A stretch of DNA of 64,000 nt from Verrucomicrobiia bacterium (GTDB lineage Bacteria; Verrucomicrobiota; Verrucomicrobiia; Verrucomicrobiales; Akkermansiaceae). The position numbers were made by a program, and so were the translations under genes. Positions 41,715 through 58,592 of the stretch are shown piece by piece. Under the pieces are notes generated by a model. The model did not search any database and had not been told where the DNA came from. It was given only the letters and a program-made list of their open reading frames with translations. The stretch covers positions 124,001 through 188,000 of the forward strand of contig CANHQJ010000004.1 of assembly GCA_947462875.1 (NCBI GenBank). Reading direction: 5' to 3'. Position 1 is the stretch's first letter. Every line of letters starts with the position of its first letter.

Positions 41715-41921
41715 GCGTCATTCAATACCATGGGCGAAAGGACGTCCAGTTTTTCATGGAGATGATGGAGATTTTGGTTCTGGTTGATATTGCCTGAACC
41801 GCTGGGATTTCATCGGGAAAGTCTGGAGCTTGTCATAAATCGTGTAATTTCTCCGCAAAATATGAATGGACGCTGACGAGCGCAGTCGATAAGAGAATTA
41901 CAAGACAAACCAAAAGAAATC
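41715..41921. other. Intergenic region between rph and the sulfatase locus
   Basis: About 207 bases separating divergent rph and the first sulfatase gene. It should hold both promoters. A TTGTCA occurs at 41830-41835 but without a well-placed -10. No hairpin, repeat or ORF of note is seen. Confidence 0.4.
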
Positions 41922-44267
41922 ATGACAGAACGAACATTATCTTTCCTCGCGGTTGCATGGGGCAGTCTGCTGACCCTCTCGGCTTTCGGACAAACCGGGC
42001 CCGACCGCAGGAATCTACCCATCGCCGAGCCACCGCGTAAAGCGATCGATACCCTCGATGCGCGCGACGCGAAGGCTCCGCCGCGTTTCGAAGTGAAAGC
42101 TCCCGCTGGTGCGCCGAACGTGGTGATCGTACTCATCGATGACATCGGTTTCGGCGCGAGCAGCGCCTTTGGCGGGCCGATCTGGATGCCCACCTTGGAG
42201 AAGATGGCGGGCAACGGGCTGCGCTTCAACCGCTTCCATACCACAGCGCTGTGCAGTCCGACGCGCACGGCCTTGCTGACGGGCCACAACCACCACGCGA
42301 ACAACGCGGGCGCGATCATGGAATTGGCAACGGCGTTTCCGGGCAATACCGGGAATCGACCGAAGGAGATCACGACCCTCGCGCAAATCCTCCGATACAA
42401 CGGATTCAGCACGGCGGCTTTTGGCAAATATCACGAGACGCCGCCGTGGGAGGTCTCGGTTTCCGGACCCTACGACCGCTGGCCGACGGGCTCGGGTTTC
42501 GAGAAGTTCTACGGCTTCATCGGCGGCGAAACGAACCAGTGGGCTCCCGCGATTTACGACGGCGTGACCCGCGTCGAGCACAAGCAGTCGCCCGATTACC
42601 ACTTCACCACGGACATGACGGATCAGGCGATCCGCTGGGTGAGCGCGCAGCAATCGCTCACGCCGGACAAGCCGTTTTACATGTATTTCGCCCCTGGTGC
42701 GACGCACGCGCCGCATCACGCGCCGAAGGAATGGATCGCGAAATACAAGGGTGAGTTCAGCGGCGGTTGGGACAAGCTGCGCGAGGAAACCTTCGAGCGG
42801 CAGAAGAAGATGGGCATCATTCCCGCGAACACAAAACTCACGCCACGCCCCAAGGAGATTCCGGGCTGGGACGGCATGAGCGCGGAGCAGAAGAGGCTCT
42901 TCGAACGCCAGATGGAAACCTTCGCCGGTTTTGCGGAGCACACGGATGCGGAGGTCGGACGCCTCGTCGCCCAGCTCGAAGCCATCGGTGAACTCGACAA
43001 CACGCTCTTTTTCTACATCGTGGGCGACAACGGATCGAGCGCCGAGGGCGGCCCCGAGGGCACCTACAATGAAATGATGGCGCTCAACGGCATCATTGGC
43101 AAAGCCGAGCAGATGCTCGGGCACCTGGGCGACTGGGGCGGCCCGTCCACCTATCCGCACTACTCCATCGGCTGGGCATGGGCGACGAATTCGCCTTTCC
43201 AGTGGACCAAACAAGTGGCGAGCCACTTCGGCGGCACCCGCAACGGCATGGTGATGCAATGGCCCAAGGGCATCAAGGCCAAGGGCGAAATCCGCAGCCA
43301 GTTCCATCACGTCGTGGATGTAGCGCCGACGGCGCTGGAGGCGACGAAAATTCCGCAACCGACCGCCGTGGACGGCATCAAGCAGCGTCCCATGGATGGC
43401 GTCTCCATGATTTACGCCGCCGACAAGGCCGACGCGCCCGACCAACGCAAGACCCAGTATTTCGAAATGTTCGGCAACCGCGCGATCTATCATGAAGGTT
43501 GGGTCGCCTGCACCCGGCACTCGATCCCCTGGGCCATGGCGGCGCTCCCGCCGCTCAAGGATGACGTATGGGAACTTTACAAGGTGGATGAGGATTTCAG
43601 CCAGGCGGAAAACCTCGCCGAGAAGAATCCCGCGAAGCTCAAGGAGCTGCAGGCGGTTTTCAACAAGGAAGCGATCCGCAATCATGTTTTCCCCATCGAC
43701 GACCGCCGCTTCGAGCGCTTCAATCCGGCTTTGGCGGGCCGCCCCGACATCATGGGCGGGCGCAAGTCCCTCACGGTTTATCCCGGCATGACCGGCATGA
43801 CTGAGAACGCCTTCATCAACGTGAAAAGCGTGGCCCATACCGTCACCGCCGAGATCGAGGTGCCCGACAACAAGGCGAACGGTGTCATTCTCGCGCAGGC
43901 CGGCTATTTCGGCGGCTGGGCTCTCTACATGAAGGACGGCATGGTGCGCCACGAATACAACTTCCTCGCCCTCGAGCACACCAGAATCAGCGCCGAAGCT
44001 CCGCTGGCACCGGGGAAACACACGCTACATTATGAGTTCATCCCTGATGCGAAAAAACCGGGCATCGGCGGCAAGTCCATCCTCAGCGTGGATGGGAAAA
44101 AAGTCGCGGAAGGGCAGATCCCGAAAACACAGGCGTTCGTTTTCTCCGGTGACGAAGGTGCCGATGTCGGCATGGATGGGGAAACGAACGTCTCCAAGGA
44201 CTACCAGCCCGGCCCGCCCAGCGCCTTCACCGGCACGATCTTCAAGGTCACTGTTGAGCAAAAGTGA
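41922..44267 (+). CDS. Secreted formylglycine-type arylsulfatase (first)
   Basis: A 781-residue exported sulfatase. Signal peptide FLAVAWGSLLTLSAFG; metal ligands Asp73/Asp74 in VLIDDIGFG; the modification motif CSPTRTALLTG with Cys111, the residue converted to formylglycine; GKYHETPPWE and the metal site GDNGSSAEGG. After the catalytic part (to about 600) comes a beta-sandwich of about 180 residues (NKANGVILAQAGYFGGWALY and beyond). This is the larger PAS-like sulfatase type. It cleaves a sulfate ester outside the cytoplasm, substrate unknown. Maturation needs a formylglycine-generating enzyme, which is not encoded here. Confidence 0.9.
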   Translation: MTERTLSFLAVAWGSLLTLSAFGQTGPDRRNLPIAEPPRKAIDTLDARDAKAPPRFEVKAPAGAPNVVIVLIDDIGFGASSAFGGPIWMPTLEKMAGNGLRFNRFHTTALCSPTRTALLTGHNHHANNAGAIMELATAFPGNTGNRPKEITTLAQILRYNGFSTAAFGKYHETPPWEVSVSGPYDRWPTGSGFEKFYGFIGGETNQWAPAIYDGVTRVEHKQSPDYHFTTDMTDQAIRWVSAQQSLTPDKPFYMYFAPGATHAPHHAPKEWIAKYKGEFSGGWDKLREETFERQKKMGIIPANTKLTPRPKEIPGWDGMSAEQKRLFERQMETFAGFAEHTDAEVGRLVAQLEAIGELDNTLFFYIVGDNGSSAEGGPEGTYNEMMALNGIIGKAEQMLGHLGDWGGPSTYPHYSIGWAWATNSPFQWTKQVASHFGGTRNGMVMQWPKGIKAKGEIRSQFHHVVDVAPTALEATKIPQPTAVDGIKQRPMDGVSMIYAADKADAPDQRKTQYFEMFGNRAIYHEGWVACTRHSIPWAMAALPPLKDDVWELYKVDEDFSQAENLAEKNPAKLKELQAVFNKEAIRNHVFPIDDRRFERFNPALAGRPDIMGGRKSLTVYPGMTGMTENAFINVKSVAHTVTAEIEVPDNKANGVILAQAGYFGGWALYMKDGMVRHEYNFLALEHTRISAEAPLAPGKHTLHYEFIPDAKKPGIGGKSILSVDGKKVAEGQIPKTQAFVFSGDEGADVGMDGETNVSKDYQPGPPSAFTGTIFKVTVEQK

Positions 44268-44321
44268 ACGCTAGTCGTGCATTCCCAAAATCACCGTCGT
44301 AGTGAAATGATCATGAAGAGG

Positions 44322-44463
44322 TTTTTACAGGAGGAAACGGAGGAAAGGGAGGGTTTGAATACACTCCTTCCTCGCCTCCTGATCAAATCTCCGAATTTCA
44401 AATAACAAAAATCAATCTCCATCAAAAATCCACCCTCCGTTCCCTCCCTTTCCTCCTGTTAAA
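44322..44463. repeat. Purine/pyrimidine-rich imperfect inverted repeat element
   Basis: The left arm (from about 44327) reads ACAGGAGGAAACGGAGG followed by AAAGGGAGGG; the right arm (44430-44460) is its approximate reverse complement, reading on the opposite strand AACAGGAGGAAAGGGAGGG then AACGGAGGG. The same two blocks occur in exchanged order. The AT-richer loop contains another CTTCCTCGCCTCCTG that pairs with the left arm. No ORF is inside. It resembles a REP/MITE-like non-coding repeat, which I cannot confirm without other copies. Confidence 0.6.
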
Positions 44464-44578
44464 TAATCCAACATCCAGAACCCTTTCCATCGCCTCCTAT
44501 TTACCCATCAATTCCATTATCAAAACCGCATTCCACCACAACATCATCCGCCATGCCGCCGTCTTTTCGGCGATCGCA

Positions 44579-45346
44579 TTGATTAACGTCATCAACATTT
44601 CCGCCAACGCGGAAGAGAAGCCCGCACCCGCGGCTCCGGCCGTGCTGGCCGATGGCGACGCCGCCAAATCCAAGCGGGTCGACAACCTGCACCAAGCGCG
44701 TTTCATCGAGATCTTCCTGGCAGCTCGCGAACCGAAAACAGGGAGTTTGGTCGCCGCCTGTTACAACACACTGTTCACGCCAAGTGGCATTCCAGAGTCC
44801 AAGGACACCTCTCCGCAGGCGCTGGTTGAGGGGCTCGACTTTGACAAAATGAAGACCGACTTCGGTGTCCTTAACGCATCGTTGAACGGCCCGAAACTTT
44901 GGCTGCCCAATTGGACCGAAATCGAAACCGGCGTCGAGCGCGACTTCAATGGCATCAAGGCCGTCTGGGTTGCCCAACTGAACATGGGCGACAACAAAGG
45001 CGGTGTGGGGGAAACCACGCCCTACAAACCTGTGACCATCGCGCGGAAGAGCGGACTGGGCTGGGACAAGGGAACCAAGGTGGCCATACTCGACGCACCG
45101 GATGGCAACACCTGGATCATGAAAGGGTTCCAACTGGGGCTCAAACCGCAGCACACCTATGACGAATTCCTTGCCGCAGGGGGAAGTCAGTTTAAGAAGC
45201 TGCCTGCTGGTTGGAAGTTCCGTGTCATCACGCTGGAAAAGGATCTGATCGAAAAGCCGGAAGGCGGAGTGGCCACCATCATGGCGGATGAGTTCTTCAA
45301 CGTTTATGACAAGACCGGCCCCGGCATGAGCAACTACAAACCCTAA
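44579..45346 (+). CDS. Predicted periplasmic protein of unknown function in sulfatase locus (start uncertain)
   Basis: At least 255 residues. The only standard start in frame before the conserved body is TTG 44579, but the frame upstream encodes a convincing signal peptide (IIRHAAVFSAIALINVINIS, then ANA before EEK) with no ATG, GTG or TTG. The true start may be a rare codon such as ATT 44516 or ATC 44519, or an original ATG may have mutated. I do not recognise the family; the body has RFIEIFLAAREPKTGSLVAA, LWLPNWTEIETG and a C-terminal DEFFNVYDKTGPG. It precedes the DUF1254 gene by 12 bases, so the two are probably translated together. Confidence 0.65.
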   Translation: MINVINISANAEEKPAPAAPAVLADGDAAKSKRVDNLHQARFIEIFLAAREPKTGSLVAACYNTLFTPSGIPESKDTSPQALVEGLDFDKMKTDFGVLNASLNGPKLWLPNWTEIETGVERDFNGIKAVWVAQLNMGDNKGGVGETTPYKPVTIARKSGLGWDKGTKVAILDAPDGNTWIMKGFQLGLKPQHTYDEFLAAGGSQFKKLPAGWKFRVITLEKDLIEKPEGGVATIMADEFFNVYDKTGPGMSNYKP

Positions 45347-45358
45347 CCGAATTTTTTT

Positions 45359-46783
45359 GTGAAGTGTTTCTCCTATGCTCTCGCTGCATCCATCGCTGCA
45401 GTCACGGCCACGATGCAACCCTGTGCCGCGCAAGCAGACATGCCTGCGGTCGAGGAGGTAAAGGCCGTTGCTGAAGAAGCCTACATCTATGGCCTGCCCC
45501 TGGTCATGGCCTACACCGCCAGTTATGAATTTTGGTTGGACAAGGCATCCTCGCAATACAAGAGCCCCATGGGCGAGTTGGTTCACAGCCGACGCGTTTT
45601 CACTTACGAGGACACGGCGGTCATCGTGCCGAACAGCGACACACCGTATTCCTTCGTCTGCCTCGACCTGCGTGCGGAGCCTTATGTGATCTCGGTGCCC
45701 GCCGTTGAAAAAAAGCGCTACTATTCCATCCAGTTCGTCGATTGGAACACGTTCAACTTCGGCTACATCGGCAGCCGTGCGACGGGTCATGAGGCGGGCG
45801 ACTACCTGGTGGCCGGACCGGAGTGGAAAGGCGAGACTCCCGCGGGAATCAAAGGCGTGTTGCGTGCCACCTCGCAGTTCACCATCGCCATCTTCCGCAC
45901 CCAACTTTTCGGTCCGGAAGACTTGCCGAACGTAGCGAAAGTCCAGGACGCCTATCAGTTGAAACCGCTCTCCTCGTTTCTCAAACAACCCGCACCACCC
46001 GCCGCAGCGGTCCTTGACTTCCCGAAGAGCAACACCCAGCTCGCCAAGACGAATTTTTTCGAACTGCTGGCATTCGTCATGCAGGTCTCGCCACCCGGTC
46101 CTGAGGAGAAGGACATCCGGGCGAAGCTCGCCAGCATCGGCCTCGGGGAAGGAAAAAAGTTCGACTTCCACGAGCTCCCGCCCGCTCACAAAGCCGCCGC
46201 GCTCGAGGGTGTCAAAGCCGGCATGGCGAAGGTGCAGGAACGCACAGCCACCATCGGCAAACGCATCAACGGCTGGCAGGTCGGCTCGGCATTCGGCAAT
46301 CGCGATTTCTACCAAGGCGATTGGCTGCTCCGTGCCGCTGCCGCGCAGGCAGGCATTTTCGGCAACAATGCCGTGGAAGCCGTCTATCCCATGACCCGCT
46401 GGCTGCCGGATGGGGAAATCATCGACACCAGCAAGCACAAGTATACGCTGACTTTCCCCGCAGGACAATTGCCTCCTGCGAACGCGTTCTGGTCGGTCAC
46501 GATGTACGACGGCAAGAGCCAGCTCCTCATCAAGAATCCGATCAACCGCTACCTGATCAATTCCCCCATGCTGTCCGGCATGAAGAAAAACGACGACGGC
46601 TCTTTGACGATTCACATACAAAAAGAAAACCCCGGCGGTGACAAGGAGAGCAACTGGTTGCCCTCGCCTGATGGCCCCATCTACATGGTCATGCGCCTCT
46701 ACTGGCCCAAGACCGAGGCTCCTTCCATCCTTCCGCCCGGTGAAGGCACTTGGCAGCCACCGGGAGTCGTAATAGAGAAATGA
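45359..46783 (+). CDS. Secreted DUF1254/DUF1214 domain protein
   Basis: A 474-residue exported protein starting with GTG. Signal peptide YALAASIAAVTATMQPCAAQ. The DUF1254 part covers about residues 40-200 (EEAYIYGLPLVMAYTASYEF, VIVPNSDTPYSFVCLDLRAE, YYSIQFVDWNTFNFGYIGSR) and the DUF1214 part the C-terminus (TLTFPAGQLPPANAFWSVTM, YDGKSQLLI, WLPSPDGPIYMVMRLYWP). Such proteins are widespread near sulfatases and outer-membrane barrels but have no established biochemical activity that I know. Located between the unknown periplasmic protein and the second sulfatase. Confidence 0.88.
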   Translation: MKCFSYALAASIAAVTATMQPCAAQADMPAVEEVKAVAEEAYIYGLPLVMAYTASYEFWLDKASSQYKSPMGELVHSRRVFTYEDTAVIVPNSDTPYSFVCLDLRAEPYVISVPAVEKKRYYSIQFVDWNTFNFGYIGSRATGHEAGDYLVAGPEWKGETPAGIKGVLRATSQFTIAIFRTQLFGPEDLPNVAKVQDAYQLKPLSSFLKQPAPPAAAVLDFPKSNTQLAKTNFFELLAFVMQVSPPGPEEKDIRAKLASIGLGEGKKFDFHELPPAHKAAALEGVKAGMAKVQERTATIGKRINGWQVGSAFGNRDFYQGDWLLRAAAAQAGIFGNNAVEAVYPMTRWLPDGEIIDTSKHKYTLTFPAGQLPPANAFWSVTMYDGKSQLLIKNPINRYLINSPMLSGMKKNDDGSLTIHIQKENPGGDKESNWLPSPDGPIYMVMRLYWPKTEAPSILPPGEGTWQPPGVVIEK

Positions 46784-46828
46784 TTCGTATCTATCTTGCG
46801 AACAAACAAAGTCAAAAGTCAGCACCCC

Positions 46829-48514
46829 ATGCCCATGAAACTCATCCGATCGTCACAAATCCTCACTCGCCTCTGCGCCGGACTGCTCATTGTCTCGGCC
46901 GTTCACGCCGCCGAGAAAAAACCCAACATCCTGCTCATCATCGCGGATGACATGGGCTACTCGGACATCACCTGTTTCGGCGGCGAGGTCCAGACACCGC
47001 ACATCGACGCGCTTGCGAAGAGCGGCATCCGGGCGACGAATTTCTACGTCGGCCCCACCTGTTCTCCAACCCGTTCGATGCTTCTCAGCGGTTGCGATCA
47101 CCATGTCGCCGGTTTTGGCAACATGGATGAACTGGCCGGACCGAAGCAGAAGGGAAAACCCGGCTACGAAGGATATCTGAACAAACGCGTTGTGCCGGTG
47201 GCGAAAGTCATCAAAGAGGCGGGCTATCACACCTACTGGGCGGGGAAATCCCACATGGGCTACGAACCGTCACAATGGCCCGCAGCGATGGGCTTCGAGC
47301 GCGATTTCACCCTGCTGCAAGGGGGCGGCAGCAACTGGAGCGACATGACCTATCCCAATCCCGCCCACCCGCATCTCAACTTTACCCTCAATGGCAAGCC
47401 GCTCGAAAAACTGCCCGACAATCACTTTTCTTCGGAGGCCTATACCGACTTCATCATCAAGTGCAACGAGGAACACCAGGCGGATGGCAAACCGTTTTTC
47501 GCCTACCTGAGCTTCCAGGCGGTGCATTCGCCATTGTCCGCGCCGGATGACTGGCTCGAAAAATACAAAGGTGTTTACGACAAGGGCTACGATGCCATTC
47601 GCGAGGAGCGTCTCGCGCGCATGAAAGAATTGGGCATCGTGGGCAAGGATACCGTCGCCTCACCGCGCGTGCCGAGCGTCCCCGCCTGGGACACGCTCAC
47701 AGCCGAGCAGAAAAAACTCTCGGCCCGCCGGATGGAAGTCTACGCCGCGATGCTGGCGAACATGGATTTCCACATCGGCCGCCTGATCGATCATTTGAAA
47801 AAAACAGGTCAATATGAAAACACGGTGGTGGTTTTCCTTTCCGATAACGGCGCGGAGCCCGTCGAACTGGGCGCACTGGTCGCGACGGTTTTCAACGAGG
47901 AAGCCAAAAAGTGGTTCTTTGAGCACTTCGACACCCGCCCTGAGAATTGGGGGCGCAAAGGTTCCGCGACGGACTACGGTGCCGCCTGGGCTCAGGTGGG
48001 CTCGACTCCCTTCCGCTTCTACAAAGCCTGGACCTCCGAGGGCGGCATTCACTCGCCCGTGATCATCGCGGGTGCCGGTGTGAAAAACGCGGGTGCCATC
48101 AAGCCTGCGATCATGCACGTGACCGATCTCGTGCCCACGTTCCTGGAACTCGCCGGAGCCAAACATCCCTCTGAAACCGACAAGAAACTCGCGCCGCTGC
48201 GTGGCAAATCTCTCACCCCGATTCTCGCCGGCAAGAGCGAGACAGTGCGCACGGACAAAGACTGGATCGGCGAGGAGCTTTTTGGCAACCGCATGGTGCG
48301 TCAGGGCGACTGGAAGCTTTGCAACATCCTCAAGACCGCGGGCGGCACCGGCGAGTGGGAGTTGTTCAATATCAAGAACGATCCCGGTGAAACCAAAGAT
48401 CTCTCCAAGCAGGAGCCGGAAAAAACCAAAGCGCTGCTCGCCCTGTGGGATCAGTATGTGGAGGAAAACGGCGTGATCCTGACCGATGACGGGCCTTTCA
48501 AAGCAAAAAAATAA
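46829..48514 (+). CDS. Secreted formylglycine-type arylsulfatase (second)
   Basis: A sulfatase of about 560 residues. Signal peptide SSQILTRLCAGLLIVSAVHA; metal Asp40/Asp41 in IIADDMGYSD; modification motif CSPTRSMLLSG with Cys78; AGKSHMGYEPSQW; second metal site SDNGAEPVELG. The C-terminus ends shortly after ELFNIKNDPGETKDL, the usual end of compact arylsulfatases, so it lacks the beta-sandwich of the first sulfatase. I chose ATG 46829; ATG 46835 (MKLIRSS) is equally plausible, and a TTG at 46796 is unlikely. The two enzymes are clearly different subfamilies, not a recent duplication. Confidence 0.9.
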   Translation: MPMKLIRSSQILTRLCAGLLIVSAVHAAEKKPNILLIIADDMGYSDITCFGGEVQTPHIDALAKSGIRATNFYVGPTCSPTRSMLLSGCDHHVAGFGNMDELAGPKQKGKPGYEGYLNKRVVPVAKVIKEAGYHTYWAGKSHMGYEPSQWPAAMGFERDFTLLQGGGSNWSDMTYPNPAHPHLNFTLNGKPLEKLPDNHFSSEAYTDFIIKCNEEHQADGKPFFAYLSFQAVHSPLSAPDDWLEKYKGVYDKGYDAIREERLARMKELGIVGKDTVASPRVPSVPAWDTLTAEQKKLSARRMEVYAAMLANMDFHIGRLIDHLKKTGQYENTVVVFLSDNGAEPVELGALVATVFNEEAKKWFFEHFDTRPENWGRKGSATDYGAAWAQVGSTPFRFYKAWTSEGGIHSPVIIAGAGVKNAGAIKPAIMHVTDLVPTFLELAGAKHPSETDKKLAPLRGKSLTPILAGKSETVRTDKDWIGEELFGNRMVRQGDWKLCNILKTAGGTGEWELFNIKNDPGETKDLSKQEPEKTKALLALWDQYVEENGVILTDDGPFKAKK

Positions 48515-48532
48515 ACATACACAACCCAATCC

Positions 48533-49309
48533 ATGAAAAAACGCACCACGATCGCCTTACTCGCTCTTTCCACTGCCGCGCTTCATGCGCAAGATGTCGA
48601 ACTCGCTCAAAAACTCGCCAATCCCATTGCTGACCTCATCAGTCTGCCAATCCAGAGCAATTTCGACTTCGGCGTTGGTCCGGGCGATGGAACGATCTGG
48701 CGCACCAACATTCAGCCAGTCGTTCCGTTCAGTTTGAATGAGGACTGGACTCTCATCTCGCGCACCATTCTTCCTGTGATCGAGCAGGAAGGTTTGGCCG
48801 CCATGGGCGACTCGCTCGATGAATCCGGACTGGGCGACATCACGCAGAGTTTTTTCTTTTCCCCGAAAAACAGCGAACTGATCTGGGGCGTGGGGCCGGC
48901 ATTCCTCGTGCCCACCGCCACCGATGAACTGTTAGGCGCGGAGCAATGGTGCGCGGGTCCGACGGCAGTGGTGCTCAAACAAGACGGTCCGTGGACCTAC
49001 GGTGCGCTGGTCAATCATTTGTGGGACTTTGCGGGTGAGGACGATCGCGATTCGGTGAATGCCACATTCTTCCAACCGTTTTTGACTTACATCACGCCTA
49101 CCAAAACGTCCTTCACGCTCAATACGGAGACGACCTATGACTGGACCAACGACCAGTGGACCGTTCCTGTGAATTTCCAAGTGGCGCAACTTTTCAAAAT
49201 CGGCGATCAGCCCATGCAGGCCTTCGCCGGCATACGCTACTACGCCGAGAAACCCAAAGACGGTCCCGAGTGGGGCCTGCGTCTGGGCCTGACTTTTTTG
49301 TTTCCTTAA
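48533..49309 (+). CDS. Outer-membrane beta-barrel transporter-like protein (first of the locus)
   Basis: A 258-residue exported protein: signal peptide TIALLALSTAALHAQ, LANPIADLISLPIQSNFDFG and then alternating strands ending GLRLGLTFLFP. It matches the putative-transporter barrels often grouped with PF13557. It follows the second sulfatase by 18 bases and is a candidate outer-membrane channel for its substrate or product. Function by context only. Confidence 0.75.
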   Translation: MKKRTTIALLALSTAALHAQDVELAQKLANPIADLISLPIQSNFDFGVGPGDGTIWRTNIQPVVPFSLNEDWTLISRTILPVIEQEGLAAMGDSLDESGLGDITQSFFFSPKNSELIWGVGPAFLVPTATDELLGAEQWCAGPTAVVLKQDGPWTYGALVNHLWDFAGEDDRDSVNATFFQPFLTYITPTKTSFTLNTETTYDWTNDQWTVPVNFQVAQLFKIGDQPMQAFAGIRYYAEKPKDGPEWGLRLGLTFLFP

Positions 49310-49349
49310 ATGGCTATCATTTCACGACTCCCACGATAAAAACGATTCA

Positions 49350-49377
49350 TTGAATGGTTGAAGTCCGACATTGTATT
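49350..49377 (+). promoter_or_regulatory. Weak candidate promoter inside the sulfatase locus
   Basis: TTGAAT (49350-49355), 16-base spacer, TGTATT (49372-49377), just upstream of the small inner-membrane protein gene. Each hexamer matches consensus at four positions, so it is a tentative internal promoter. Confidence 0.3.
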
Positions 49378-49394
49378 TGATTCATCCGATCCTC

Positions 49395-49898
49395 ATGAGT
49401 GCCAAAGAAAAATTGCAACACGAACTGAAAGCGGTAGTCCTGATCACGCTCTTTTTTGCCGCGTGGCTGGGAGTCTTTATGGGACTGAAGGTGCTCATCC
49501 TGGAAGACTACCAGATTCGTTTCGGCAGCGTCTCCGCGGTGCTGATCGGTGCCTTGATCCTCGCGAAGGTCGTGCTGATTTTGGAACATGTCTCCCTCGG
49601 TTCGTGGCTGCGGAATCGGCCGGTTCTGGTGAAGGTCATCCTGCGCACCCTCCTTTATGCGTTCGGAACATTGATCGTGATTCTGTTAGAAAAAGCTATC
49701 GAGTCGCGCCATGAGCAGGGTGGGTTCGGCCCCGCATTGATGAATGTGTTCCGGCACAAGGACATGCCTCATCTCTGGGCGAACACGATCTGCGTGACGG
49801 GTGCCTTGCTTTTCTACAACCTGCTCTCCGCCCTCAACCACCACCTCGGCACCGGCGGACTGGTCCGGATCTTCCTCTCACCGCAACAGCATGAATAA
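49395..49898 (+). CDS. Small inner-membrane protein of unknown function
   Basis: A 167-residue protein with four predicted membrane helices: LKAVVLITLFFAAWLGVFMG, SVSAVLIGALILAKVVLIL, LVKVILRTLLYAFGTLIVIL and ANTICVTGALLFYNLLSAL. I know no characterised member. ATG 49395 (MSAKEKLQHEL) fits the charged N-terminus better than the upstream start. Its last eight bases overlap the next barrel gene, so the two are translationally linked. Confidence 0.75.
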   Translation: MSAKEKLQHELKAVVLITLFFAAWLGVFMGLKVLILEDYQIRFGSVSAVLIGALILAKVVLILEHVSLGSWLRNRPVLVKVILRTLLYAFGTLIVILLEKAIESRHEQGGFGPALMNVFRHKDMPHLWANTICVTGALLFYNLLSALNHHLGTGGLVRIFLSPQQHE

Positions 49899-50826
49899 AC
49901 ACAGTTGTTTTCGTAGATGGTCCGCTGATTTATCCGGCATTTTTGCGTGGTTCATCGTTGCGCAACCCTGTCTTGCACAAGACATCGAACCGCGCCGCTG
50001 GAGCCACCTGCCGCTTGGTGGGAACTTTGGTGGTCTTGCGTATGCCTACACCGAGGGCGATATTTTTCTCAATCCGGTGCTGCGGATCGAGGACGGGGAG
50101 TTCGAGATGAACACGGCAGCCCTCAAGTATATCCACGCCTTTGAGCTGTTAGGAAAATCCGCGCGAGTCGACCTGCTTCAGATGTATCAGAGCGGTTCGT
50201 GGAGCGGATTGGTCAACGGAACTCCCGCCGCCATCGACCGCGAAGGATGGGCGGACACCACTGTTCGTTTCGCGGTGAATCTCTACGGCGCACCGCCGCT
50301 CGAGCGAGAGGAATTTATCGAATACCGCAAGGCGACGCAAACCGAGACCATCGTCGGCGCGGGCTTGGTCATGACGCTGCCCACCGGTGAGTATTTTGAG
50401 GACAAGCTCATCAACCTCGGCGCGAACCGTTACTCCTTCACTCCGCAATTCGGCGTCGTCCACACCCGCGGCAAGTGGACCATGGAGCTCTCTACCTCTG
50501 TGACATTCTTCACGGACAACGACGAGTTTTTCAACGGCAGGCAACTCGAGGAGGATCCTCTCTTCATTGGACAGGGCCATCTGATCTACAACTTCATGCC
50601 CGGTGTGTGGCTCGGTGCCAGTGCCGGCTATGGGTACGGTGGGGAATCCACGATCGATCAGGTTTCCGCAGACGACCGCAAAGGCAACCTCGGCTTTGGT
50701 TTGAGTGCGGGCATTCCTGTCAACCGCAACTTCGGATTCAAGATCTCCTACATCGGCATCCGAACGCAGGAAGAAGTCGGCTCCGACAATGACACTTTCA
50801 CCCTCTCCTGCTCACTCCAGTGGTGA
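49891..50826 (+). CDS. Outer-membrane beta-barrel transporter-like protein (second of the locus)
   Basis: A 311-residue exported barrel. Signal peptide GIFAWFIVAQPCLAQ; LPLGGNFGGLAYAYTEGDIF, MTLPTGEYFEDKLINLGANR and the aromatic terminus TLSCSLQW are typical of PF13557-like putative transporters, where a meta-cleavage-pathway link has been suggested. ATG 49891 overlaps the preceding gene; the longer frame upstream is only its shadow. Partner of the neighbouring inner-membrane protein by context. Confidence 0.8.
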   Translation: MNKHSCFRRWSADLSGIFAWFIVAQPCLAQDIEPRRWSHLPLGGNFGGLAYAYTEGDIFLNPVLRIEDGEFEMNTAALKYIHAFELLGKSARVDLLQMYQSGSWSGLVNGTPAAIDREGWADTTVRFAVNLYGAPPLEREEFIEYRKATQTETIVGAGLVMTLPTGEYFEDKLINLGANRYSFTPQFGVVHTRGKWTMELSTSVTFFTDNDEFFNGRQLEEDPLFIGQGHLIYNFMPGVWLGASAGYGYGGESTIDQVSADDRKGNLGFGLSAGIPVNRNFGFKISYIGIRTQEEVGSDNDTFTLSCSLQW

Positions 50827-50873
50827 ATCCGTAAAATTTCCCTGCGCCAGAATCACCGAGACACCTAACAAGA

Positions 50874-51677
50874 ATGATTGCTATGATGAGGCACCGCTTT
50901 CACACCGCTTGGATCTTTGTAACGACGATTCTTGTCGCCGGTCTCCATGCGCAGCAGCATGATTCCCGCCGGGAATGGTTTGAGCATTCTCATGATAACG
51001 CGTGGCGCCTGCCCTATGACACGACCTTGCTCAGCCGTCGGGTCTTGAGCGAGCTGAGTTACGAAAGCCATGACGACGATGAGAATTTCTGGAAAATCGA
51101 GAACTCGGTGCGCGGCGGCTATGCCCTCAGCGATAACCTCGCCTTTGGCGTTCAGATGATGGTTCCCGTGAGGTGGATCGACTCATCCGCCTCGGATGAA
51201 TCCGGAATCGGCGACCTTGAACTGCGAAGCGGCTTCATCGGGCGCTTCGCGAACGACCTTCGCTGGGGGGCGGGTCTCAATGCGGAGTTCGATACCGCGA
51301 CGGATTCCGCCCTCGGCGGCAACGCGCTGATTTTGCGACCAACCATGGCGCTTCGCTGGGATGCCAACGATTGGCTCAATCTGGGGGTCAACGTCGAATA
51401 CACCTTCACACCGATGGAAGAGCGCGATGACGACGTCAGTGCTCTCGAACTGAAATTCCCCGTCGTATTCAGGCTCAGCGACAGTTGGTCCGCAGCGGCC
51501 ACCTACAAGCCGAGGTGGAATTTTCTGAATGAGTCTGACCGCCACCGTCTTGAACTCGGAGTTACCCAAGTGTGGGGCCCGGAGAATCAATTCGCGCTGT
51601 CTTTCAGACTTGAAGTCCCGTTAACATCTGAAAGTATGGACTACAAGCTTGTTGCTGGATTCGCCTGGCACTTTTAA
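50874..51677 (+). CDS. Outer-membrane beta-barrel protein (third of the locus)
   Basis: A 267-residue exported protein: signal peptide TAWIFVTTILVAGLHAQ, then strand-rich sequence (GGYALSDNLAFGVQMMVPVR, GDLELRSGFIGRF) ending in KLVAGFAWHF with a terminal Phe, the barrel-assembly signal. Also PF13557-like. It may start at ATG 50874 or at 50883. Third barrel of the same broad fold in four kilobases, but the three differ clearly in sequence. Confidence 0.75.
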   Translation: MIAMMRHRFHTAWIFVTTILVAGLHAQQHDSRREWFEHSHDNAWRLPYDTTLLSRRVLSELSYESHDDDENFWKIENSVRGGYALSDNLAFGVQMMVPVRWIDSSASDESGIGDLELRSGFIGRFANDLRWGAGLNAEFDTATDSALGGNALILRPTMALRWDANDWLNLGVNVEYTFTPMEERDDDVSALELKFPVVFRLSDSWSAAATYKPRWNFLNESDRHRLELGVTQVWGPENQFALSFRLEVPLTSESMDYKLVAGFAWHF

Positions 51678-51694
51678 CCACACCCACACCTCGT

Positions 51695-53278
51695 ATGATG
51701 TATCAGCCAACGTTAGTCAATCCCGGCACATGGATCCGCTCATTCGGATTGATGTGTGGTGTCGCTCTGCTCTCCCAATGTTCCGCGCCGGTATCTGTCC
51801 GGATGGAAAAGCCCGTTGCTCCCGCTGGCGCACCCGCCGTGTCCCCAAACACCGTAGCGCTTCTCTCCTCCCTTCGCGGTGACTATGCAAGAATACGCCT
51901 GGGCGATGATTCCGCCATCCCTGCCTACAACTACAGAGTGGCGCGCCTCATCGAGCATCTGGAACAGACTGGTGAGGATCCCTGGAGCAAGCCCATAACA
52001 CTCTCCGGCACCCAGCGACTCAAAGGGATCGCCCCCGCGGGCACCTCGCCAGTCAAAGACCAATTGTTCCCTGCCGATACCCTCGCGTTCCATGGCAAAT
52101 ACGCCGAGCACCGCGCCCAGGTTTCCGGCATCGGCGCGCCACTGGTTCTGGTGACATCGTTTGTAGGCATCGGCCGTGAACAAGTCCGCAGCAATCTGCC
52201 GCTGCGCAATCTCACCGCCATCGTCCGCTTCGAAGGAAAAACCACCACCCTCGAGCTCATCGATCCCTATCAGGTGGAAACCATCTCGCTCGCCGGAAAA
52301 TCCCGCCCGCTCGCCGCAGACTATGGTGCGGCCACCATGCTTGGCCTCTCCAAGGCACGCATCGACAAACTCGGTCTCGCCCGCTTGCTCCGCCCATCCC
52401 GTTACAACGACACCGCGAACCTGAATTTCCTGCAGCCGTATGACCCGAAGCGCATCCCCGTGCTCATGGTCCACGGCCTGCAGGATACACCGGCATCCTT
52501 CGCTCCCATGTACTACAAGCTCTTGCAAGATCCGAAGATCCGCAAAAACTATCAGTTCTGGGTCTTCAGCTATCCCAGTGGCTATCCTTATCCCTACTCC
52601 GCGTCCTTGCTCCGTCGCGAACTCGATGAGGTCAAGCGCGACTACCCCGGTCACAGGAACATGGTCCTCATCGGTCACAGCATGGGAAGCCTCGTCAGCC
52701 GCCTGATGGTGACCGATGTCGGAGACAAGCTGTGGATCAGAGCCTTCGGGAAATCACCTTCGGAAACAAAGCTCACAGGCAATAGCAGCGAGGTGTTGAG
52801 GAAATCATTGGTTTTCAGCGATCGCAAGGAAGTGGACCGCGTCCTCTTCTACTCCGGTCCGCACCGTGGTTCCATCCTCGCTTCCAACTGGATTGGTGCC
52901 ACCGCCTCGCGTCTCGTCCAGGTGCCCAGTCTTGTGGCTGATGTCCGCAACGCCGCGATCTCCGCGGCCTCCGCCGACATCGCCGGCCTGACAATGAATA
53001 GCGCGCCGAACAGCATTGGCACACTCTCGCCCAGAAATCCCTTCGTTCAGGAGATCAACAAGCATCCCATCGTGGGGCGCATCCCTTATCACACCATCGT
53101 GGGGGATCGCGGCAAAGGCGACACGCCCGATTCCTCGGACGGCGTGGTTGCCTACTGGAGCTCGCATCTTGATGGAGCGGCTTCCGAAAAAATCGTTCCC
53201 TCCGGCCACAGCTCTCATCAAGACCCGCAGGGTATCGAGGAAGCCCGCCGCATTCTCCATCTGCACCTTACCGACTAA
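51695..53278 (+). CDS. Lipase/alpha-beta-hydrolase lipoprotein
   Basis: A 527-residue protein. The N-terminus has a lipobox-like LLSQCSAP, suggesting a lipoprotein. The hydrolase core begins near residue 250: oxyanion region VLMVHGLQDTPASF, nucleophile elbow LIGHSMGSLVSRLM, and a candidate catalytic His in PSGHSSHQDPQG; the acid residue is probably in TPDSSDGVV. About 240 residues precede the core, a beta-rich domain I cannot name. It should hydrolyse an ester at the cell envelope. It ends two bases before the MscS gene, so the genes are likely cotranscribed. Confidence 0.82.
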   Translation: MMYQPTLVNPGTWIRSFGLMCGVALLSQCSAPVSVRMEKPVAPAGAPAVSPNTVALLSSLRGDYARIRLGDDSAIPAYNYRVARLIEHLEQTGEDPWSKPITLSGTQRLKGIAPAGTSPVKDQLFPADTLAFHGKYAEHRAQVSGIGAPLVLVTSFVGIGREQVRSNLPLRNLTAIVRFEGKTTTLELIDPYQVETISLAGKSRPLAADYGAATMLGLSKARIDKLGLARLLRPSRYNDTANLNFLQPYDPKRIPVLMVHGLQDTPASFAPMYYKLLQDPKIRKNYQFWVFSYPSGYPYPYSASLLRRELDEVKRDYPGHRNMVLIGHSMGSLVSRLMVTDVGDKLWIRAFGKSPSETKLTGNSSEVLRKSLVFSDRKEVDRVLFYSGPHRGSILASNWIGATASRLVQVPSLVADVRNAAISAASADIAGLTMNSAPNSIGTLSPRNPFVQEINKHPIVGRIPYHTIVGDRGKGDTPDSSDGVVAYWSSHLDGAASEKIVPSGHSSHQDPQGIEEARRILHLHLTD

Positions 53279-53280
53279 TC

Positions 53281-55269
53281 GTGAACCCGTTGCGCCATAG
53301 ATTTTCCCTGGGACTTCTCCTTGCCGTCTCGTTGGTCATGTTGCCCCACCGGCTGGCGGCTCAGGATGCCTTGTCGGGTGATTTCTCGAAACGGTCCGAG
53401 ATCGAAAAACGCCTCGCCGCCGTCCGTGCGGAAAGCAGCGCGCTGCCCACAGACGCCGATCCCGAGCTCCGTCAGCGGCTGCAAGAACTGGATGCCATTT
53501 GCCAGTTCCACCTGACCGCGCTGGATGTTCTCGTCAAGGCCCAGGCCGGGCGTGATGCGGCCGTCCAAGCGCTCGGCGCGTGGCGTGGTTTCACCGAGCC
53601 TCCGCCTTACTCGATCCTGCTCCTCGATGAGGTCCGTGAGACGCAGGCCAATTTGGCGGCCGCTCAGCGCGCCGGCGAGGCGCAACTCCGCATCTTCCGC
53701 ACGGAAATCGAAGCCGCGCGCGACAAGCTCGACGCGCACCTGCAGGCCGAGCGTGAGTTCGCCGATGAGGCCAGCAGCGCCACCACTCCCGAAGCCCGCC
53801 AGAGTGCCGAGCGCTCGGTCAAATCCGAGAAGCTCTCCTCACGTTTTGCCGCCGAGCTGGTGGCGCGTCTCGGTTTGCGCCTTCAGTCCCAGCAAGCGGA
53901 GTTGGACATGATAGGCCCCCAAATCGAACTGGCCACACTCAAAGAAAAAGCGCTCGAAGGGAAAATCATCTTTCCTCAAAAAGATCTCGATGCTGTCCAG
54001 CAAACCATCGCGCGTGAGAGACAGGAGGCCGTTGCCGCGTTGGTCGCCACCAGCCGCCAGTCCCCGACGCCCAATCCGCTGCTGACTTGGAAAATCGAGT
54101 TCCTCGATTTGCAAAAAGACTTCTGGAATGCCCGTTTCGAAGGATTCTCAACCAAGGATACGGCAGTGGCCAAAAAAGCACTCGCCACTCTCAACGAGCA
54201 CAAAACCCGTGTCGATGACTGGACCGAGATCGCCCAGCTCCGGCTCGCCGGCGGCAGCACGGCGGCGGCCGAAATTGATCTAACAAAAATGCGCGAGAGC
54301 ATGCAGCAGGTCGCCCGGATTCAGCGCCGCATCACTTTCGCCATCGCCGATCTCGAAGGCGAGCATGTCAACATACCCGCGCTCGACCTGGTCACTTCAC
54401 GGCTGAGCGCCCTGTGGAATGCCGAGCTCTATCTTGCCGAGGAAACCGAGGTGGTCAACGGCAACAAGATCACCACCTACCGTGCCGTCACTGTGGCAAA
54501 GCTCGCGAGACTCGCCGTGATTCTCACGGTCGGCTGGCTATTGCTGCGCTTTGTCGCGCGCAAGGTGGAATCGATCGTGGCGCGCAAGGTGGGCATTTCC
54601 GCCACAGCTGCGGAGCTTGTCGCGAAATTCGTCTTCTGCCTCGGCCTCGGCTTGCTGATGGTGTACGGACTGAATACCGTCCGCATTCCCTTCACGGTTT
54701 TTGCCTTCCTCGGCGGTGCGCTGGCCATTGGCGTAGGTTTTGGCACCCAGACCATGCTGAAGAATTTCATCAGCGGCATCATCCTGATTTTCGAGCGCCC
54801 GCTCAAGGTGGGCGACACCGTGCAGATCGACAGTGTGACGGGGCGCATCCGCAGCATCGGCATGCGTGCCTCCATCATCACCCACGGTAATGGCATCGAT
54901 ACCATCATTCCCAACAGCAATCTGTTAGAGAATCAGGTGACCAACTGGACACTGAGCGATTCATTGCTGCGCCACTCGGTCACGGTGGGGGTGGACTATG
55001 CGTCGCCCACCCGCGAAGTATCCCACGCGCTGCTGGCTGTGGCGCATGAGCACGGACTGGTCCTGAAAAATCCGGCACCCGAGGTGTGCTTCGAGGACTT
55101 CGGCGAAAAGGCGCTGGTCTTCCGTCTGCTCTTCTGGTTTGATACCAGCAAGGTATCCGCGGATACCATCAGCAGTGATTTACGGTATATGATCGGAAAC
55201 GCATTTGCGGATGCCGGCCTGATCATTTCCAGCCCCCATCACCGTGCTCAGAGCAACTCCAACTCATGA
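53281..55269 (+). CDS. MscS-family mechanosensitive channel with long periplasmic helical domain
   Basis: A 662-residue protein starting at GTG 53281. A signal peptide (LGLLLAVSLVMLPHRLAA) is followed by about 370 residues of helical, coiled-coil periplasmic sequence, then membrane helices from about residue 400 and the MscS core: AFLGGALAIGVGFGTQ pore helix, FISGIILIFERPLKVGD and the GIDTIIPNSNLLENQVTNW cytoplasmic beta domain. This is the MscK/MscM-like large type. It releases solutes under membrane tension. Its place in the sulfatase locus is unusual and could protect against osmotic load from substrate uptake; that is inference. Confidence 0.88.
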   Translation: MNPLRHRFSLGLLLAVSLVMLPHRLAAQDALSGDFSKRSEIEKRLAAVRAESSALPTDADPELRQRLQELDAICQFHLTALDVLVKAQAGRDAAVQALGAWRGFTEPPPYSILLLDEVRETQANLAAAQRAGEAQLRIFRTEIEAARDKLDAHLQAEREFADEASSATTPEARQSAERSVKSEKLSSRFAAELVARLGLRLQSQQAELDMIGPQIELATLKEKALEGKIIFPQKDLDAVQQTIARERQEAVAALVATSRQSPTPNPLLTWKIEFLDLQKDFWNARFEGFSTKDTAVAKKALATLNEHKTRVDDWTEIAQLRLAGGSTAAAEIDLTKMRESMQQVARIQRRITFAIADLEGEHVNIPALDLVTSRLSALWNAELYLAEETEVVNGNKITTYRAVTVAKLARLAVILTVGWLLLRFVARKVESIVARKVGISATAAELVAKFVFCLGLGLLMVYGLNTVRIPFTVFAFLGGALAIGVGFGTQTMLKNFISGIILIFERPLKVGDTVQIDSVTGRIRSIGMRASIITHGNGIDTIIPNSNLLENQVTNWTLSDSLLRHSVTVGVDYASPTREVSHALLAVAHEHGLVLKNPAPEVCFEDFGEKALVFRLLFWFDTSKVSADTISSDLRYMIGNAFADAGLIISSPHHRAQSNSNS

Positions 55270-55344
55270 TTTCCCTCTCCCGCCTGAAATTTTTTCGCCT
55301 CTATTTCCTGATACAATCTTTCCATGCAACAACTCTATAAACCT

Positions 55345-57711
55345 ATGAAAAACACCATTCATCGTATTGCTACAATGCTGCCTATCGCGGTCGGGCTGTG
55401 TTTCAGTTCCATCGCCCAGGATGCCCCTCCTCCCGCCGATCCCGGTTGGCCGCGCGAGTTCGCCGCGGAAAATAAAAAACTCACGATCTATCAACCGCAG
55501 GTCGATGAGTGGAAGGACTACACGACCATTCATTTCCGCTGTGCCATCGAGGTGGAAGGCGTGATGAAAGAACCCAAGTTCGGCGTCGCGGAGATTGAGG
55601 CCAGAACGCTGGTGGACCAGACCGCCCGGACGGTGAAAGTATTCCCCATCAAACGGGAGATCCGTTTCACGGGAGTTTCCCCCGAGGAGGAAAAATCCCT
55701 CCGCACCACCGTCGATGCCATTCGCCCGCCGCAGCAACTCATCACGGTATCGCTCGATCGCGTGCTGGCCTGTCTTGACTCCGAGTCCGCTGCCGTGCAG
55801 AAAACGGTGGATGTCAGCCTTGCGCCGCCGAAGATTTTCTACAGCAACAAACCTGCCGTGCTGGTCATCTTCATGGGCGAGCCGCAGTTCAAGCCGGTAG
55901 TGGCATCGGACCCCGATCTGATGTTCGCGCTCAACACCAACTGGGACGTGTTCTATCAGCCCTCGAGCAAAAGTTTCTATCTGCTCAACGACGATCACTG
56001 GCTCACCGCTACTTCTGCCGAGGGACCATGGACGGTGGCGACTACCTTGCCGGACAAACTCAACAAGCTGCCCGCCGATGACAACTGGGCGGAAATCCGC
56101 AAGCACATTCCCGCGAAAAAAGTCGATGTCGCGGAGCATGTCTATGCCAGCAAACAGCCTGCCGAATTGCTGCTCACCGCGGGCGATCCCGATTACAAGC
56201 CCATTCCCAACACCAAGTTGCTGGAAGTGGCGAATACCGAGAGCCTGTTGATGCTAGACTCCGCTGGCGGAAAATTTTATTATCAGGTCGCCGGTCGCTG
56301 GTTCCGCGCGCCGAAACTCGATGGTCCCTGGGAAGCCGCCAGCAACAACCTGCCCGATGATTTCAAAAACATTCCGGATGATCATCCGCTCGCCTTCGTC
56401 AAGTCCACCGTGCCCGGAACGGATGAGGCGAAGGATGCCGTATTGCTGGCATCGGTGCCACAATCCACTTTTGTCGATACCACCAAAGCGCCGACGCTGG
56501 AAGTCACCTACAAAGGAGCGCCGGTGTTTGAGCCTATCCCGCCCACCTCGGTGAAATACGCGGTGAACTCTCCCTTCTCGGTGTTTCTTGTCAATAATGG
56601 CTACTACTGCTGCGACCAAGGCGTGTGGTTTTCCGCCACAACAGCGAATGGCCCCTGGGCCTGGGCGACCACAGTGCCTAACGAAATTTACTCCATCCCC
56701 GTGTCCAGCCCGGCGCACAATGTCACCTACGTGACCGTCAAGGAGTCCACTCCTGACACCGTCATTTACAATCAAACCTCCGGCTACAGCGGTGAGTATG
56801 TGGCGGCGAATGGCGTGCTGATGTTTGGCGCGGGCTTGTTGGTAGCGGCATTGATCGATGACCACCATGACCATTATTGCTATCCGCCCTCCTCTTGGTA
56901 TTCGTACGGCTGCGGTGCCGTCTATCATTACGGCTACGGCGGTTACTATGGTGCGGCGGGTCGTGTCTACGGCCCCTATGGCGGTGCTGGTTATGTCGCG
57001 GCCTACAATCCCGCTACGGGCATTTACAGCCGTGGTGCCTATGCCTATGGACCCTACGGCAGCGCGGGCTATCGCCAGGCGTATAATCCGCATACCGGAA
57101 CCTATGCCGCTGCCGGATATCGCGCGACTCCGTATGGCACAGTATCAGGTGCCAGAGCCTACAATCCGTACACCGGAGCCACTGCTGCCGGCGGTCGTGT
57201 CAGCACCGCTTATGGCTCTGCCGGGCGCGCCGCTGCGTACAATCCGGTCACGGGCAAAGCCGCCACCGCTGGTTATGTTTCCGGTGATGCTGGCACCGTC
57301 GCCGGAGGACGCAATAACCAAGGAGGCGCTGCAGTCGGATGGGATACCAAGAACGGCCAAGGCGCTGTTGTCAAAACAAAGAATGACAACGTCTATGCCG
57401 CACACGATGGCAATGTGTACAAAAAAGACTCAAACGGCAACTGGAGCAGCAATACCGGTAGTGGTTGGAAACCTGCCGAAGCAACCAAACCCACTGCCAC
57501 GGCACCATCGCAGCGGCCTGCCCAGCCGACGACCCGCCCGACCACGCCGACGCAGCGTCCCACGACCACGCAAAGCACCAGCCGTCAATCGCTCGATTCG
57601 ATGTCGCAATCGCGCTCACGCGGCAATACCCAAACCCAGCGCACGCAATCCTTCCAGCGATCCGCCCCCAGCTCCAGCGGTGGCAGAAGTGGTGGCGGCA
57701 GACGGCGTTAA
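55345..57711 (+). CDS. Large secreted/membrane-anchored protein with four 26-residue repeats
   Basis: A 788-residue protein. Signal peptide ATMLPIAVGLCFSS. The globular part (to about 480) has four or five pieces, several ending in a Trp-Gly-Pro-Trp turn (SAEGPWTVATTLP, LDGPWEAASNN, ANGPWAWATTVP), themselves a degenerate repeat. A membrane helix (NGVLMFGAGLLVAALIDD, about 490-510) precedes a Tyr/Gly-rich region with exact-length AYNP repeats, then a Thr/Pro/Gln/Ser-rich tail ending GGRSGGGRRR. Similar proteins in Planctomycetes are labelled carbohydrate-binding family V/XII, which I cannot verify. I chose ATG 55345; ATG 55324 is in frame. Confidence 0.75.
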   Translation: MKNTIHRIATMLPIAVGLCFSSIAQDAPPPADPGWPREFAAENKKLTIYQPQVDEWKDYTTIHFRCAIEVEGVMKEPKFGVAEIEARTLVDQTARTVKVFPIKREIRFTGVSPEEEKSLRTTVDAIRPPQQLITVSLDRVLACLDSESAAVQKTVDVSLAPPKIFYSNKPAVLVIFMGEPQFKPVVASDPDLMFALNTNWDVFYQPSSKSFYLLNDDHWLTATSAEGPWTVATTLPDKLNKLPADDNWAEIRKHIPAKKVDVAEHVYASKQPAELLLTAGDPDYKPIPNTKLLEVANTESLLMLDSAGGKFYYQVAGRWFRAPKLDGPWEAASNNLPDDFKNIPDDHPLAFVKSTVPGTDEAKDAVLLASVPQSTFVDTTKAPTLEVTYKGAPVFEPIPPTSVKYAVNSPFSVFLVNNGYYCCDQGVWFSATTANGPWAWATTVPNEIYSIPVSSPAHNVTYVTVKESTPDTVIYNQTSGYSGEYVAANGVLMFGAGLLVAALIDDHHDHYCYPPSSWYSYGCGAVYHYGYGGYYGAAGRVYGPYGGAGYVAAYNPATGIYSRGAYAYGPYGSAGYRQAYNPHTGTYAAAGYRATPYGTVSGARAYNPYTGATAAGGRVSTAYGSAGRAAAYNPVTGKAATAGYVSGDAGTVAGGRNNQGGAAVGWDTKNGQGAVVKTKNDNVYAAHDGNVYKKDSNGNWSSNTGSGWKPAEATKPTATAPSQRPAQPTTRPTTPTQRPTTTQSTSRQSLDSMSQSRSRGNTQTQRTQSFQRSAPSSSGGRSGGGRRR
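57001..57312 (+). repeat. Four tandem 78-bp (26-codon) repeats
   Basis: AYNP-x-TG begins at 57001, 57079, 57157 and 57235, an exact 78-base period, each unit carrying a conserved AYNP and, less strictly, a PYG-type segment. The DNA diverges while length is kept, pointing to selection on the protein repeat. Confidence 0.9.
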
Positions 57712-57757
57712 TTTTGTTCTTTCCCTGTTAAATCCTATCTTCTATACCTCTCCTATC

Positions 57758-58540
57758 ATGAAAACCACATTGCTATTGGCTTCCACATTGTTCCTCTCCG
57801 CGATTCCCGCAAGCGCCGCCACCACGGTGACTTCGGCCACTGATGCGACCTTCACCACCACGGCGGACTCCGACTGGCGTTACCAGTTCTCGCTCCCCGG
57901 CTGGCTTCCCAGCCTCAATGGTCACATGATCGTAAAGGGTGAGCCCTTGCAGCTTGATTTGGACGTGTATGATGAGCTGTTGCCCAACCTGAGCTCCACC
58001 GTGATGGGTTCTTTCGAGGTGGGCAAAGGCAAGTGGAGTTTCCTTACGGACCTGCTCTACATCAGTTTGAAACCATCGGGCTCGCTGCCGCGCGCTGATT
58101 TTGACATGGAGCTGCAGCAATTCATGGGCAACTTCGCGGTATTCTACAACGTGCTCGATACCGAGGACAGCCGCATGGATGTCTATGGCGGAGTCCGCGT
58201 CAACTGGCTGAAAGTGGATGTGGATGCCAGAGGGAAAGGACCGCTGGGCCGCACCTTCAGCAAGTCCTCCGACATGACCTGGGTGGATCCCATCGTTGGT
58301 GTGCGTTACCAGTATGATATCAATGAAAAAACGTTCATCACGGCGATGGCGGATGTGGGCGGATTCGGCGTAGCATCGGACTTCGCGGGAAATGCCCTGA
58401 TTTCCCTCGGATACCGCGTGAACGACAAGCTTTCGCTGGGCGTGGGCTACAAGGCGAACTATTCCGACTACACCGATGGCGATGTGACCTATGACATCAC
58501 GGAACACGGTCTGTTGCTCAGCCTCGACTACGCGTTTTAA
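57758..58540 (+). CDS. Outer-membrane beta-barrel protein (end of the locus)
   Basis: A 260-residue exported protein: signal peptide LLLASTLFLSAIPASAA, then strand-rich sequence with WRYQFSLPGWLPSLNGHM and an ending LLSLDYAF whose terminal Phe is the barrel signal. The RYQYDINEKTFITAMADVGG and DKLSLGVGYKANYSDY blocks look like OmpW/OmpA-type porins. ATG 57758 follows the repeat protein by 46 bases; the longer upstream frame is a shadow of that gene. The same strand and spacing suggest it closes the locus. Confidence 0.8.
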   Translation: MKTTLLLASTLFLSAIPASAATTVTSATDATFTTTADSDWRYQFSLPGWLPSLNGHMIVKGEPLQLDLDVYDELLPNLSSTVMGSFEVGKGKWSFLTDLLYISLKPSGSLPRADFDMELQQFMGNFAVFYNVLDTEDSRMDVYGGVRVNWLKVDVDARGKGPLGRTFSKSSDMTWVDPIVGVRYQYDINEKTFITAMADVGGFGVASDFAGNALISLGYRVNDKLSLGVGYKANYSDYTDGDVTYDITEHGLLLSLDYAF

Positions 58541-58592
58541 GAAAGTTGCTGCAATTTTGCCCTTTTCATGAGCGGCGCTGCGGGTAACGATA

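Follow-up and report, generated by a model that had tools for sequence, protein, structure and literature searches.

Gene content of the locus

We analyzed a 64-kb window of DNA (positions 124001-188000 of contig C4) from a Verrucomicrobiota genome of 3.95 Mb in 39 contigs (G000). Between rph and lpxK, this window carries twelve plus-strand genes for envelope proteins, which fill positions 41922-58540. The block is a genomic island, present as a single inserted unit, and its contents tentatively suggest a transferable kit to use or detoxify an amphipathic sulfate ester. The initial annotation, made from the sequence of the window, had both the content and the coordinates of the block right, including the two S1 sulfatases (41922-44267 and 46832-48514) that flank g02 and a DUF1254/DUF1214 protein. 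The genes and their two neighbors are:

40929..41714, minus strand: rph (RNase PH; PF01138), left flank, outside the island; conserved neighbor of lpxK in congeners
41922..44267, plus strand: g01, sulfatase A, S1 formylglycine sulfatase of 781 residues, CSPTR at residue 111 (PF00884, E 7.8e-60; nearest solved structures 7all and 1hdh)
~44519..45346, plus strand: g02, exported protein of an unfamiliar family, start uncertain (in related islands, homologues lie between sulfatase A and DUF1254)
45359..46783, plus strand: g03, DUF1254/DUF1214 protein with signal peptide (PF06863, E 6e-43; PF06742, E 3e-33)
46832..48514, plus strand: g04, sulfatase B, CSPTR at residue 77 (phmmer E 7.8e-143 to the Pseudomonas aeruginosa arylsulfatase, 1hdh; motifs)
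48533..49309, plus strand: g05, predicted outer-membrane barrel, COG4313/FapF-like fold (AlphaFold2 model)
49395..49898, plus strand: g06, inner-membrane protein with ~3 hydrophobic stretches (hydropathy; 73-89% homologues in related islands)
49895..50826, plus strand: g07, outer-membrane barrel of the Phenol_MetA_deg (COG4313) family (PF13557, E 1e-18, 68.7 bits, cut-off 22)
50874..51677, plus strand: g08, predicted outer-membrane barrel (signal peptide, beta-rich; no Pfam match)
51695..53278, plus strand: g09, alpha/beta hydrolase, secreted or lipid-anchored, GHSMG nucleophile motif (PF12697, E 2.4e-6)
53281..55269, plus strand: g10, large MscS-type channel with a long N-terminal region (PF00924, E 4e-20; PF21082, E 8e-10)
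55348..57711, plus strand: g11, exported repeat protein with a Gly/Tyr-rich C-terminus (no Pfam match)
57758..58540, plus strand: g12, outer-membrane barrel, weak DUF481 (PF04338, E 6.8e-5, 23.4 bits, cut-off 21.1)
58593..59810, plus strand: lpxK (PF02606), right flank, outside the island

The gaps between the genes are short (2 to 85 bp), as first described, apart from ~250 bp between g01 and g02. The several overlaps also described come down to a single one of 4 bases, between g06 and g07; the open reading frame (ORF) 56858-58540 overlaps by 850 bp only as an artefact of mechanical ORF prediction, the actual start of g12 lying near 57758. A Pfam profile search of the island proteins gave no match for g02, g05, g06, g08 and g11.

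The block was inserted as a unit

Comparison with related genomes by blastn and local alignments delimited an inserted segment of ~16.79 kb (41759-58549) between rph and lpxK, containing exactly the twelve genes and, besides them, ~160 bp of upstream sequence. In three congeneric genomes (G175, G166 and G183; loci L153, L154 and L155), rph and lpxK are directly adjacent without the island, and at the empty site of G183 local alignment places both flanks within ~8 bases of each other. No integrase was found among the twelve genes and no tRNA in the 64-kb window, and the island ends have a match of only 8 bp in common; for these reasons we do not term it an integrative element. In kind it is a catabolic or adaptive genomic island. 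The GC profile stays at 0.55-0.62, with no sharp anomaly across the island. The empty sites alone fit both a gain in the window genome and a loss in the three congeners, and it is the pattern of identities given below that favors a gain.

A second insertion lies by rph, at window positions 38318-40926. A kinase-domain gene (38300-40846, minus strand) is missing there in G175 and G166, where <100 bp is left.

Related islands within the phylum

Each of the twelve families has a counterpart in at least one other island. The families recur in the islands of G183, G324/G253, G156, G193 and G263, and partly in those of G325, G257 and G066. The order sulfatase A-g02-DUF1254 is constant in G183, G324, G156, G193, G263 and G325, so that the neighborhood comparison bears out conservation of order for this core and not for the remaining genes, which shuffle. 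At another site than the window island, G183 has counterparts of 11 of the 12 families, arranged as g01, g02, g03, g06, g07, g11, g05, g08, g09, g10, g12, its g12 counterpart being only 35% identical; past this island lie genes for TPR, DUF4440, aquaporin, HAD, two DUF1254, amidohydrolase and AraC proteins. The G324/G253 islands hold g01 (two copies), g02, g03, g06, g07, g08, g09 and g10, with added genes for a histidine kinase, a response regulator, DUF3313, Lnb_N and amidohydrolase proteins. In G193 we found g01, g02, g03, Lnb_N, g04 (84%), g12, g06, g07 a kinase and a regulator, and in G156 g01, g02, g03, g06, g07, g05 and g09. The homologues thus recur together rather than being scattered, which, with the unit insertion, agrees with the single system proposed initially. 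The block in the window has no regulator, as had been noted, but this does not extend to the related islands, some of which carry AraC or histidine kinase/LuxR regulators.

The g03 gene is sporadic at the thresholds used, being present in 3 of 145 genomes from the phylum and 12 of 195 from the family. The G324 island genes g01, g02, g03, g06 and g07 are 80-94% identical to those of the window. Against G324/G253, identities are 94% for g02, 83% for g03, 89% for g06, 83% for g07 and 62% for g10, with 63% for lpxK; against the congener G183 they are 90, 79, 81, 75 and 57%, with 86% for lpxK. These five island genes are nearer to G324/G253 than to the congener while lpxK shows the opposite, which points to horizontal transfer. 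From the identities and the shuffled gene orders we take the island to be horizontally transferable and modular.

Sulfatases and their probable activation

Both g01 and g04 retain CSPTR (the CxPxR modification motif), the metal-binding DDxG and DNG motifs and GKxH. Sulfatase B aligns with the P. aeruginosa arylsulfatase 1hdh over 523 residues that include the formylglycine-site motifs. A formylglycine-generating enzyme is encoded in the genome outside the island (PF03781, E 6.1e-77; C-HESY-C pair; motif GGSFLCHESYCLRFR), and PF00884 has 62 matches in the whole genome. The motifs support the prediction that sulfatases A and B are catalytically equipped for sulfate ester hydrolysis.

Barrels, hydrolase, channel and repeat protein

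The AlphaFold2 model of g05 is a confident barrel (predicted local distance difference test score, pLDDT, 89.6). It matches the COG4313 channel 4rl8_C (Z 21.8, root-mean-square deviation 2.7, 227 residues aligned), FapF (Z 22.4) and also KdgM/NanC porins (Z ~19). At E 0.01, g05 gave no match to PF13557, where weak matches may be hidden by HMMER filters. COG4313 channels have been proposed to take up hydrophobic molecules, a detergent being bound inside the barrel, and the members Pput2725 (4rl8), SphA and TcpY have been linked to uptake of phenol-type compounds, trichlorophenol or sphingosine (PMC4493636).

Homologues of g08 (58-65%) stand beside lipase and MscS genes in two islands. The g09 product is lipase-like, as annotated, in being an alpha/beta hydrolase; its description as a lipoprotein is unproven, since it has no canonical lipobox (LLSQC). 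Lipase paralogues elsewhere in the same genome (L023 and L024) have no island around them. Pfam matches place both the beta and the C-terminal domains of MscS in g10. Homologues of g11 occur in 14 of 195 family genomes and also on rhizobial plasmids, where they are annotated as "SH3 domain-containing".

The g02 and DUF1254/DUF1214 (g03) proteins

The g02 gene would begin with ATC-AAA in the window, against ATG-AAA in its homologues, and its first standard start is TTG at 44579; the ATC may be a rare start codon, a loss of the start or a sequencing error. No Pfam or NCBIfam match was found for g02, and searching the PDB with the g02, g09 and g11 sequences gave no meaningful match. The AlphaFold2 model of g02, built from 7 sequences, has a pLDDT of 44. 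Its homologues in related islands are 73-94% identical and lie between sulfatase A and DUF1254, and a 41% homologue adjoins a sulfatase in Flammeovirga. Just upstream of g02 in a related locus (L032, 9150-9200), there is an apparent short 5' fragment of a g06 gene (ATGAGCATCCAAGAAAAACTGAAACACGAACTGAAAGC), possibly a scar of island shuffling.

In g03, both DUF1254 and DUF1214 domains score above their curated cut-offs. Locus L030 (14545-17556) encodes a DUF1254/DUF1214 protein of 1003 residues, with ~500 additional residues past the domains. In Malassezia, a genus of lipophilic yeasts, every member has a conserved PF06742 (DUF1214) gene (PMC4634964).

Distribution beyond the phylum

A scan of genome contigs found DUF1254 proteins of 57-82% identity in at least 80 loci, in Proteobacteria, Planctomycetota, Acidobacteria, a cyanobacterium and others. 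Near DUF1254, S1 sulfatases of the g01/g04 type occur in 15 of 50 distant loci, with 1.7 expected, and g05-like barrels in 13 of them, with 0.22 expected, the expected values being taken from genome-wide counts in the 50 distant genomes with loci treated as independent although some genomes are related. The sulfatase test is conservative, its background being inflated by PF00884 counts. That DUF1254 stands near sulfatases and g05-type barrels merely through their abundance is rejected by these genome-wide counts. FadL/TodX-type channels likewise lie near DUF1254 in one group of loci. In Pseudomonas laurylsulfatiphila, three loci (L093, L100 and L107) have close DUF1254 homologues, one of them also with a g05-type barrel and an S1 sulfatase.

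Rhizobial plasmids combine DUF1254, g05- and g11-type genes, a transporter, an alpha/beta hydrolase and an arylsulfatase, followed by MoxR/VWA/BatD genes. At loci L138 and L146, genes for DUF1254, g05/g11-type proteins and arylsulfatase adjoin a MoxR-DUF58-DUF4381-VWA-VWA-BatD array, and at L146 there is in addition a gene of the formylglycine-generating-enzyme family. An Agrobacterium plasmid carries MscS together with g05 and g11 homologues.

Proposed function of the island and its alternatives

Given the modeled fold of g05, PF13557 in g07, a lipase-like hydrolase (g09) and sulfatases that are exported, the locus is most simply read as taking up an amphipathic sulfate ester and breaking it down. 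We propose, with a probability a little under one half (about 0.45), that the island is a transferable modular envelope kit to use or detoxify such an ester. The COG4313-type barrels g05 and g07, possibly with g08 and g12, would let the molecule pass into the outer membrane or across it. Once activated by the chromosomal formylglycine-generating enzyme, the exported sulfatases A and B would cleave off sulfate, and g09 could cleave a carboxylic ester or acyl group. The g03 protein, with g02, may provide a periplasmic binding or processing step beside the sulfatase, and g06 and the MscS channel (g10) may let the envelope cope with released solute or membrane strain. The twelve genes would be cotranscribed, and g11 may have a part in the same kit. 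If so, the island may give environmental bacteria a means of breaking down oily sulfate esters, detergents and algal sulfolipids among them.

Uptake and desulfation of an amphipathic sulfate ester had been suggested in the initial annotation. The hydrophobic part of that suggestion gains from the COG4313-type fold of g05 and PF13557 in g07. Its sulfate-ester part gains from the sulfatase motifs, the formylglycine-generating enzyme and the association of sulfatases with DUF1254 in other phyla, but does not hold for the whole class; many distant DUF1254 loci are without a sulfatase, so that desulfation would be a trait of this version. Several observations weigh against the ester-processing kit. 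The block contains no inner-membrane importer; the g05 model is as close to the amyloid exporter FapF as to COG4313, which would allow for export; no g01/g04-like sulfatase was seen within the fetched DNA of 35 of the 50 distant DUF1254 loci; g11 is also found without island partners; and the MoxR/VWA/BatD genes and channels of the rhizobial relatives would equally fit a role in envelope stress.

That role is the main rival, in which MscS, the barrels, g06, g11 and DUF1254 would stabilize the envelope as an envelope-stress or osmotic-protection island, while the sulfatases and lipase would trim the cell's own surface molecules. It draws support from the second MscS genes, aquaporin and Lnb_N proteins in related islands and the rhizobial versions with MscS, a potassium channel, OmpA and MoxR/VWA/BatD genes. 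We consider it less likely than the ester-processing kit: beside DUF1254 there is a strong excess of sulfatases and of hydrophobic-type barrels, and the sporadic presence of g03 in the family is more in keeping with an optional substrate than with a general tolerance of stress. Verrucomicrobiota use sulfated glycans and loci for this purpose are common in the phylum, so that a sulfated-polysaccharide utilization locus might also be considered, the more so with 62 PF00884 matches in the genome. However, the twelve genes have no matches to glycoside hydrolases, polysaccharide lyases, SusC/SusD or TonB receptors, and the nearest barrels are of the hydrophobic type rather than glycan porins (the KdgM/NanC matches notwithstanding). 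We rejected a sugar-polymer locus on the absence of SusC/D and glycan-cleaving enzymes from these Pfam matches, and regard it as quite improbable.

There is a slim chance that the block is an export system. Like FapF with amyloid, g05 and the remaining barrels would then release a product that had been synthesized or altered in the periplasm. The roughly equal match of g05 to FapF and to COG4313 and the Gly/Tyr-rich repeat tail of g11 would suit such a system, but no Fap-type partner family is among the block's Pfam matches and the two sulfatases would be left unexplained. A block of accidental co-oriented neighbors, made of several unrelated short units, is hardly credible: the gene order differs from island to island and promoter and terminator scans of the block stayed at chance level, but the unit insertion with its empty sites and the recurrent co-occurrence largely refute it.

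A wider idea is that the islands form one widespread and so far undescribed class of envelope system around DUF1254/DUF1214 and g02. Interchangeable hydrolases (sulfatase, alpha/beta hydrolase, HAD or amidohydrolase) would there be combined with barrels for hydrophobic molecules. The Verrucomicrobiota version would attack sulfated lipids (sterol sulfates or algal chlorosulfolipids, for example), and DUF1254 would be a new lipid-processing or lipid-carrying protein. We consider this doubtful. Proteins with DUF1254/DUF1214 domains occur in hundreds of bacterial genomes, and the recurrent partners in a transferable gene set offer testable substrates and partners for them.

Comparison with known systems

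The sulfatases, the channel and the barrels belong to known families, whereas the open-access literature that we searched describes neither the assembled island nor its insertion as a unit nor the recurrent DUF1254-g02-sulfatase-barrel association. VPA0106 and VPA0735, known from structural-genomics entries 3u07, 2p3y and 3vb9, have the same two domains as g03; the same literature held no functional study of DUF1254, DUF1214 or these structures, and no island context for them. The P. aeruginosa arylsulfatase 1hdh has formylglycine-site motifs in common with g01. Compared with it, g01 and g04 have signal peptides and belong to an envelope island, and g01 has a long C-terminal extension. Sulfatase-rich polysaccharide utilization loci resemble the island in having multiple S1 sulfatases and differ in SusC/D, glycoside hydrolases and lyases, which are absent from the island. 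The COG4313 channels are alike in predicted fold to g05 over 227 residues, and g07 matches the family's PF13557; as described, these channels are not tied to sulfatases, unlike g05 and g07 in the island. The rhizobial plasmid clusters (pSinB, R. leguminosarum, A. tumefaciens and S. meliloti pSymA) differ by their added MoxR/VWA/BatD, adenylate cyclase or DUF2092 genes, with many lacking a sulfatase and identities mostly of 25-65%. They have DUF1254, g05- or g11-type genes, an alpha/beta hydrolase and a transporter barrel in common with the island, and sometimes MscS and an arylsulfatase as well.

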